A stretch of 64,000 nt of DNA from Buchnera aphidicola (Hyperomyzus lactucae) (GTDB taxonomy: Bacteria > Pseudomonadota > Gammaproteobacteria > Enterobacterales > Enterobacteriaceae). A program made the position numbers and the translations under genes. The stretch covers positions 7,234-71,233 of the forward strand of contig NZ_CP034876.1 in the NCBI RefSeq assembly GCF_005081705.1. The letters are read 5' to 3'. This document shows positions 11,341-14,673 of this stretch, piece by piece (positions within the stretch are counted from its first letter, which is position 1; every line of letters begins with the position of its first letter). The notes beneath the pieces were generated by a model. That model ran no database searches, was not told where the DNA came from, and was given only the letters and a program-made list of their open reading frames with translations.

Positions 11341-13011
<1,671 letters not shown>

Positions 13012-13051
13012 GAAAAATTTTTTCTATTATTTTAAATTAATTTAAAAATAT

Positions 13052-13088
13052 CTTTCCTCAGATTTTTCTGAGGAAAGTCTTTTTTTTT
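13052..13088 (+). terminator. Intrinsic terminator of groES-groEL
   Basis: CTTTCCTCAGA at 13052-13062 pairs perfectly with TCTGAGGAAAG at 13067-13077 around a TTTT loop: an 11-base-pair stem followed by TCT and a run of nine or more T. It is the best classical terminator in the window, suiting a very highly expressed operon. Confidence 0.92.
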
Positions 13089-13090
13089 AA

Positions 13091-14079
13091 TTAACACAAA
13101 TCATTTATTTTATTATTCTTTAAGTTTGTATTATAAACTGATTAAAGTGCTAAATAATTAAATATCATTTTCATTAAATTAGTTATAATAGATTTAATTT
13201 GATTGTTTAAAACTACAAAAAACATTGTTTTAGTAACTTCACGTAAAATATGAAGATAATATTATTTTCGTATAAAAAATCACTGAATTTTTTTTAGAAT
13301 AATAGCATCATCATTAATATTTTTTAAAAATGTACTTTGATTCAGTAAACTTGAACTAGATTTTTTTAACTTTAATAAACTAATGCTTATATTATTGTTT
13401 ATTTCTTGTAGATGATTAATATAAGTCGCTAAAATAATTTTAATAAAAGATTCAATAAATATTCAAAAAATATTAGAAGTTATTTTATAAATTATCACAA
13501 TAAACGATTCGGTATAGATTCTTAATTGTTTTATATGATGAATATTACATAATGATTGAATTAGCTATAATAATTCATGATCTTTAGCAACAATATGGCT
13601 TTCATCTGAAAAAAATTACTTCATTCAATTTTTATCATTCTATATATTATAAGCTACTAGTCTAGTTTTTTTATTTCCATGATTTTGTTAACATAGGAAA
13701 AATTTTTTTAAAAAATATCTATAAATGATAGTACAGTTTATTTCAACAGTGAATAATGCTCGATCATTATTTTTTTGTAATAATGTAGGTAATACAATAT
13801 TTTTTTATCTTTTATAGGATCTAAAATAGATTCTAAAGAATTTATATGTTTTTTCGTGCGTAATAACTTGTAATAAAAGTAGAAATTTTGAATTGTTTTC
13901 GTCATTCTTGAAATAAAATAACGTAGGATACGAAGCAGAATTTTTTTTTGATTAAGAATTGAGATATTTGGGAAAACTTTCTCTATTAAGCATTTTTAAT
14001 AATTCTTTTGATTCTGCAATAGAATTTGATAGTTCACATAACCAGGCATCTTTTTTTCTAGTTATTTTTTTAGTTTCAT
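13091..14079 (-). pseudogene. epmB: Decayed epmB (yjeK): EF-P beta-lysine lysine 2,3-aminomutase
   Basis: Not translatable, but the minus strand carries the EpmB sequence in order across changing frames. The start codon at 14077-14079 opens 42 codons including KKDAWLCELSNSIAESKELL (E. coli: WLTQLADVVTDPDELL) and stops at 13951. Further fragments include VLPTLLQKNNDRAL near 13754-13795, AKDHELL near 13571-13600, HHIKQLRIYTE near 13510-13545 and [15 protein letters not shown] near 13298-13352, each close to E. coli EpmB. The radical-SAM CxxxCxxC becomes CTIIYRYF, losing two of three cysteines. The order groEL, epmB (leftward), efp (rightward) matches E. coli, with yjeI and yjeJ lost. Confidence 0.9.
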
Positions 14080-14103
14080 ACATTGTATAAAATAGAGGCT
14101 GAT

Positions 14104-14673
14104 ATGAGAGTATATCACAGCAATAATTTTCGTTCAGGCTGTAAAATTATATTTGAAAATGAACCGTGTTTAATAGAATCTAGTGAATTTGTTAAACCCG
14201 GAAAAGGTCAAGCTTTTGTTCGTGTAAAATTAAGAAAATTATTAACTAATCAACTAATAGAAAAGACATTTAAATCTACAGATTCTTTAGAAATAGCTGA
14301 CATTATAGAATATATACTCTCTTATTTATATAATGATGGTCGCTTTTGGTATTTTATCAATAACAAGACTTTTGAAGAATTGTCAGTAGAAAAAAAAATT
14401 ATTGGCGGTCATAAAAAATGGTTGCTAGAACAAGATACCTGTGTTGTAACTTTATGGAATAATCAACCGATTTCTATTACTCCTAATACTTTTGTAGGAC
14501 TTGAAGTCATAGACGTACAAGCAACCTTGAAAGGTGATACTATTAATAGTTCTATTACTAAATTAGCAACATTAAGTACTGGTGCTGTTGTAAGAGTACC
14601 GTTATTTATTCAAGTTGGTTCGTTTATCAAAGTGGATACACGATCTGGTGAATATGTATCTAGAATTAAGTAA
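14104..14673 (+). CDS. efp: Translation elongation factor P
   Basis: Binds between the ribosomal P and E sites and relieves stalling at proline runs. The 189 residues compare with 188 in E. coli. The KOW-like domain I contains [11 protein letters not shown], where the second lysine is residue 34, the one beta-lysylated in E. coli. The C-terminal OB folds show [11 protein letters not shown] and end [17 protein letters not shown] lies six bases before the ATG at 14104; an upstream in-frame TTG at 14083 is less likely. It is divergent from the epmB pseudogene and convergent with dnaC (18-base gap). Confidence 0.97.

Follow-up and report, generated by a model that had tools for sequence, protein, structure and literature searches.

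A decayed epmB gene beside an intact efp, and purifying selection on epmA without EpmB, in Buchnera aphidicola

EF-P is normally modified with beta-lysine, which is made by EpmB and attached by EpmA. In Buchnera aphidicola (Hyperomyzus lactucae) the spacer next to an intact efp holds the remains of epmB, which raises the question of what use EpmA can have, and what becomes of EF-P, once the enzyme that makes the donor is lost. We analysed a window of 64,000 nucleotides (contig NZ_CP034876.1, positions 7,234 to 71,233, the whole stretch of DNA to which window coordinates below refer) together with the complete genome and the genomes of the genus, 36 in all. The combination of efp and epmA with a missing epmB is not new for Buchnera: poxA was reported without yjeK in 2010 (Bailly and de Crecy-Lagard, PMC2821294, excerpt), and in 2015 the presence of efp and poxA and the absence of yjeK and yfcM were discussed, with either the use of alpha-lysine or a loss of the modification proposed (Rajkovic et al., PMC5354580). 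The genome studied here resembles strain APS as described in both accounts in having efp and poxA/epmA and lacking yjeK/epmB, and differs from those reports in that epmB has left readable remains and that the selection acting on epmA has been measured. What is new are the selection on epmA without EpmB, of which we found no earlier report in the open-licence literature, and the genus-wide counts.

The groEL-efp spacer (window 13012-14103, 1,092 bases) contains no open gene, and a previous sequence-only reading had claimed that its minus strand nevertheless encodes EpmB, which our searches bear out. The EpmB model TIGR03821 matches G000:C1:20381-21277 on the minus strand (G000 being this genome; window 13148-14044, E 1.2e-40) across 10 internal stops, at 137.3 bits against a family cut-off of 369.3 bits, and the pseudogene as a whole extends over window 13106-14079 on the minus strand. 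Ten intact Buchnera EpmBs could be aligned with the spacer over 324-337 residues, with 39-47 % identity and E values from 6e-46 to 4e-63, and E. coli EpmB matched at 30 % identity (E 3e-34). The homology is thus full-length and lies in the ancestral place, the same as that of the 10 intact copies, divergent from efp. Compared at the nucleotide level with the intact epmB of G023, the fossil is 71.2 % identical and four other intact epmB genes are 78.1-88.8 % identical. Its gene part carries 10 indels against the majority state of the intact copies, 9 of which are not multiples of three in the nucleotide alignment, and its stops are of all three kinds. For the greater part the fossil reads in one net frame, with brief excursions into the other two when set against an intact relative; the description of fragments spread over all three frames is therefore loosely right, although the three peptides quoted for it as coming from different frames (window 13754-13795, 13508-13540 and 13304-13348) all share one. 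That selection might be holding the fossil in frame, as a tblastn match in a single frame over the whole length could suggest, was rejected because the nucleotide alignment has 9 frameshifting indels, whose shifts nearly cancel out.

The ATG on the minus strand at 14077-14079, described earlier as still present, is indeed there but lies in another frame than the rest, where its reading ends after five residues at a stop in codon 6 (MKLKK*). At the place of the radical-SAM CxxxCxxC motif (13712-13735, minus strand) the fossil reads CTIIYRYF, the first cysteine being kept and two lost, in agreement with the sequence-only reading. A TIGR03821 profile search of the 652,809-base genome at E <= 0.001 found no second copy. 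We are certain that the spacer holds a decaying, full-length and multiply broken epmB divergent from a working efp, and it is one half of a once complete EF-P beta-lysylation system. An active protein from this gene is impossible, and since no second copy was found no EpmB-made beta-lysine is available; the earlier claim that the lineage makes no beta-lysine holds in this sense. Homopolymer frameshifts number 1-18 per Buchnera genome (table in PMC3164680, excerpt), and these, with the predominance of one net frame, would favour slippage during transcription, or readthrough, as a way to an active product. The probability of such a product is practically nil, given the 10 stops of all three kinds, the loss of two of the three radical-SAM cysteines, which speaks against an active enzyme, and a branch omega for epmB that is indistinguishable from 1 (below).

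The fossil is flanked by intact genes, groEL on the left as a 548-aa ORF at 11365-13011 on the plus strand, and efp at 14104-14673, also on the plus strand, which scores 221.6 bits against a cut-off of 185.8 and has Lys34 in its loop, as had been stated. The gene order groES-groEL-efp-dnaC-dnaT is identical in all 36 genomes of the genus, where, efp excepted, the names are those we take to apply and were assigned by similarity to the window ORFs; glmS was not found in the examined stretch of three of the 36. Between the live and the dead gene, on the side of the spacer next to groEL, we read from the sequence a terminator-like hairpin, CTTTCCTCAGA...TCTGAGGAAAG (13052-13077), which is perfect with 11-base arms, is present in all five other sequences of the alignment and is likely the terminator of groEL. 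A search for known RNAs in the spacer gave a single Rfam hit below threshold (27.8 bits, threshold 53), which we took as chance.

The loss of epmB holds for this lineage, as the sequence-only reading had it, but is no peculiarity of it. Among the 36 Buchnera genomes epmB scores over the cut-off in 10, is a readable fossil in this genome alone and has no match in 25, leaving 26 without a working copy. The spacer measures 1,128-1,170 bases in the 10 epmB-intact genomes and 100-873 bases in the 25 without a match, whose spacers showed no EpmB similarity at E <= 0.01. On a genus tree built from nine proteins (2,860 columns), the deepest nodes of which are weakly supported, the epmB-less genomes form a clade of 12 that includes this genome, a clade of 9, the single genomes G004, G024 and G005, and the pair G019 and G025. 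This distribution would imply five or six losses if the gene was never regained, and more if the fossil described here is younger than its clade. The pattern is like the Buchnera gene inactivation described by Degnan et al. 2011, in which one gene was lost independently in several lineages and homopolymer frameshifts were found (PMC3164680, excerpt); efp, poxA and groEL have 0 occurrences each in its main text.

In this genome epmA lies outside the window, where the sequence-only reading could not see it, and the earlier inference is incomplete without it. It is intact at G000:C1:616581-617492, with no stop, and scores 387 bits with TIGR00462 (cut-off 286.9 bits) and 475 bits with NF006828 (cut-off 264), the NCBIfam name of the product being EF-P--(R)-beta-lysine ligase; the nearest solved chains are 3a5z, 3a5y and 3g1z. 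Its neighbours are the gene for a ferredoxin-NADP reductase, which falls just under its own cut-off, and coaD. What remains is a partial EF-P modification system, with efp and the transferase present and the donor synthase absent. As in the E. coli EpmA/EpmB/EpmC pathway there is an efp with Lys34, an EpmA over cut-off with two EpmA-type pocket residues and an epmB divergent from efp; unlike in E. coli, EpmB is broken and the EpmC model PF04315 has a match in 0 of the 36 genomes of the genus.

EpmA over the cut-off occurs in 25 of the 36 genomes of the genus. It is kept by 15 of the 26 that lack a working epmB, full-length in 14 of these and frameshifted in G016, whereas the other 10, with G030 counted on neither side because its epmA region is all N, lack an EpmA that reaches the cut-off. 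Fossils of epmA were recognised in two of these 10 (G006 and G034), six showed no epmA remains in the interval between the two neighbouring genes, and for G019 and G025 the search did not locate both flanks. The frameshift of G016 (L036) is a single one and falls at a run of T close to the 5' end of the gene, and homopolymer frameshifts are numerous in Buchnera (PMC3164680, excerpt). Nine of the 10 epmB-bearing genomes have an intact epmA; in the tenth, G001 (L037), epmA has one frameshift, and no other of the 36 genomes combines an intact epmB with a damaged epmA.

Outside the genus we searched 55 genomes of the family without epmB, 54 having no epmB match and one (G134) nearly none; 12 of them, from 7 genera, carry EpmA over the cut-off. 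Six of these 12 are listed at 400 kb, and in 11 the reductase gene adjoins epmA, the arrangement to be expected if they are further aphid symbionts. EpmA exceeds the cut-off in each of the 27 other reduced genomes that bear epmB (listed at <= 1.1 Mb, epmB match at E 1e-106 or better), and in two of them a single TAG interrupts it. Together with the retention of epmA in 15 of 26 epmB-less Buchnera, these gene contents suggest that epmB loss comes first, and epmB seems to be lost before epmA. G169 (L121, listed at 1.4 Mb) has EpmA over the cut-off, no epmB match and no reductase neighbour, from which EpmA without EpmB may extend beyond aphid symbionts.

We measured selection with a codon model written for this analysis (MG94-type, F3x4, with branch classes), using one set of ten taxa for all genes in the test of the G000 branch. 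On that branch the epmB fossil has an omega of 0.695 (others 0.149; 95 % limits about 0.42-1.22), with equality to the other branches costing 17.4 lnL and omega = 1 costing 0.85, while epmA has an omega of 0.163 (others 0.165; 95 % limits about 0.10-0.28), with omega = 1 costing 17.0 lnL. The corresponding values for efp and mnmE are 0.063 and 0.182. By simple arithmetic epmB has been neutral, at the point estimate, for ~64 % of the branch, so that an epmA released simultaneously would show an omega of ~0.70, a value which would cost 12.1 lnL; the neutral share of epmA is at most ~14 % even at its 95 % limit of ~0.28. On this branch epmB evolves almost neutrally and epmA is constrained as in epmB-bearing relatives. 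The point estimate places the loss of epmB here after the split from G012, within a range that includes an earlier loss; on the tip since that split epmA has an omega of 0.21 in a 23-taxon set, where a value of 0.4 costs 2.3 lnL.

For epmA within the epmB-less clades of the genus omega is 0.159 (0.143 on tips, 0.182 on stems and internal branches), compared to 0.171 on epmB-bearing branches; omega = 1 costs 314.8 lnL, and a single omega for all branches costs 1.9 lnL for three parameters. Outside the genus the omega of epmA ranges from 0.08 to 0.12 in three sets of three genomes with very long branches, and on long branches synonymous sites are near saturation. The dates of the individual epmB losses are not fixed, and part of the constraint on epmA predates the loss if many were recent. 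EpmA is thus under selection without EpmB on the branch of this genome, and elsewhere within the limits set by the loss dates.

We compared two pocket positions, 76 and 298 in E. coli numbering, the second of which reportedly governs donor choice in EpmA. EpmA has Ser and Ala at these positions and the five Buchnera LysRS compared have Ala and Gly; the EpmA of this genome carries S76 and A298. Among the 26 EpmAs of epmB-less genomes (14 of the genus and 12 outside it) S76 is present in all and A298 in 25, and the shortened EpmA of G016, left out of this count, keeps both. A change to a LysRS-like alpha-lysine pocket was therefore not seen at the two positions compared, and their retention gives no sequence sign of a change of donor. 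An unchanged pocket would neither indicate a switch nor rule out the use of alpha-lysine; E. coli PoxA/EpmA accepts alpha-lysine as a poorer substrate (PMC9437257, excerpt; PMC5354580). The sole EpmA of the 26 with Ser at position 298 is that of G216 (L128), from outside the genus. Other motif changes among the 12 outside genomes are F249C in two, H108N in one and D302E in one, the two with Cys for E. coli Phe249, in an NGF motif common to LysRS, being G256 (L130) and G154 (L132) of one genus.

Every one of the 36 genomes has efp over the cut-off and keeps Lys34, including the 10 without epmA, and conserved Lys34 is for that reason no evidence of modification and was rejected as a sign of it. 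The omega of efp is 0.121 on epmA-less tips and 0.089 elsewhere (2dlnL 5.94), against 2dlnL values of 0.29, 0.31, 0.60, 0.69, 0.81 and 3.86 (the last for dnaC) in control genes under the same contrast, which offers a hint only that EF-P is loosened where epmA is gone.

The sequence-only reading had left three options, in which EF-P works unmodified, receives alpha-lysine or is modified by a host or unknown route. The intact, selected epmA argues against an EF-P that simply works unmodified beside a leftover EpmA: as epmA is intact and selected while epmB is dead, we infer that EpmA is still useful without EpmB. The explanation that we favour, with moderate confidence, is that EpmA works without EpmB and, most likely, puts alpha-lysine on EF-P, the choice of donor being the more conjectural part. 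While epmB was mostly free to decay, an intact epmA has been kept by purifying selection over the same branch, and EpmA would activate (S)-alpha-lysine, the second-best donor of its known reaction, drawn from Buchnera's own synthesis for the host, to which it supplies lysine (PMC5354580). Attachment to Lys34 would give alpha-lysyl-EF-P, which may be enough for the few remaining polyproline proteins. Some lineages would then lose EpmA too, with EF-P presumably working bare, and the absence of epmA from 10 of the 26 epmB-less genomes indicates that its EpmB-independent use is dispensable. More tentatively, and as a serious possibility that could well prove wrong, EpmA may be naturally EpmB-independent in many aphid symbionts, with alpha-lysyl-EF-P, or EF-P carrying another ordinary amino acid, as the native form, selected over long spans since the death of epmB, with the pocket unchanged at the sites where EpmA and LysRS differ. 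The pocket has perhaps stayed as it is because high lysine in Buchnera makes a change needless.

The alternative that EF-P works unmodified and that epmA is a leftover of the pathway that decays more slowly is favoured by the 10 of 26 epmB-less genomes that have no epmA and still keep efp with Lys34, by the epmA fossils of G006 and G034 and by the few PPP proteins remaining here, as was also said of strain APS (PMC5354580). We consider this unlikely, because purifying selection on epmA over the very branch on which epmB decays argues against a leftover combined with bare EF-P: the omega of 0.163 is like that of epmB-bearing relatives and far from the 0.70 of epmB, the neutral share is ~14 % at the epmA 95 % limit against ~64 % for epmB, and the 12 genomes outside the genus, six of them listed at 400 kb, also have epmA without epmB. 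We know of no source of beta-lysine in aphids, and a supply from outside, whether from the host cell, the diet or a co-symbiont, which EpmA would continue to use, is less likely still, although the unchanged S76 and A298 and the strong constraint on epmA would agree with it. A supply of beta-lysine would sit oddly with the repeated losses of epmA, and the bacterial genes that the excerpted text lists in the pea aphid genome include no lysine 2,3-aminomutase, with 'aminomutase' and 'yjeK' at 0 occurrences (PMC2829048). EpmA might also have a job that never needed EpmB, with another aminoacyl donor or another protein target, and it does persist in many epmB-less genomes, while epmB was never seen without an epmA match in the sets searched (epmA being frameshifted in G001). 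This too we regard as improbable; the higher omega of efp on epmA-less tips (2dlnL 5.94) hints, weakly in view of the 3.86 of the control dnaC, that EF-P is still the partner of EpmA.

Modification of EF-P is often treated as all-or-nothing, and here the donor synthase has been lost several times with the transferase kept under measurable selection. The older suggestion of alpha-lysine as a native donor (PMC5354580) becomes testable in the 15 epmB-less genomes with epmA, for which the 10 related epmA-less genomes are natural controls for bare EF-P.

In a survey of 68 candidate sites among ORFs of >= 80 codons, at least four ORFs of this genome contain a PPP motif, namely HisD, GlyQ, ValS and a MutL-like protein; for APS four PPP genes were reported, with few polyproline proteins left (PMC5354580). 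In GlyQ, the glycine--tRNA ligase alpha subunit (L223:834-1802, minus strand), the motif lies in MKPPPR. The E. coli protein presumably has KPSP at this site, so a symbiont that lacks beta-lysine may have acquired a polyproline motif in GlyQ.
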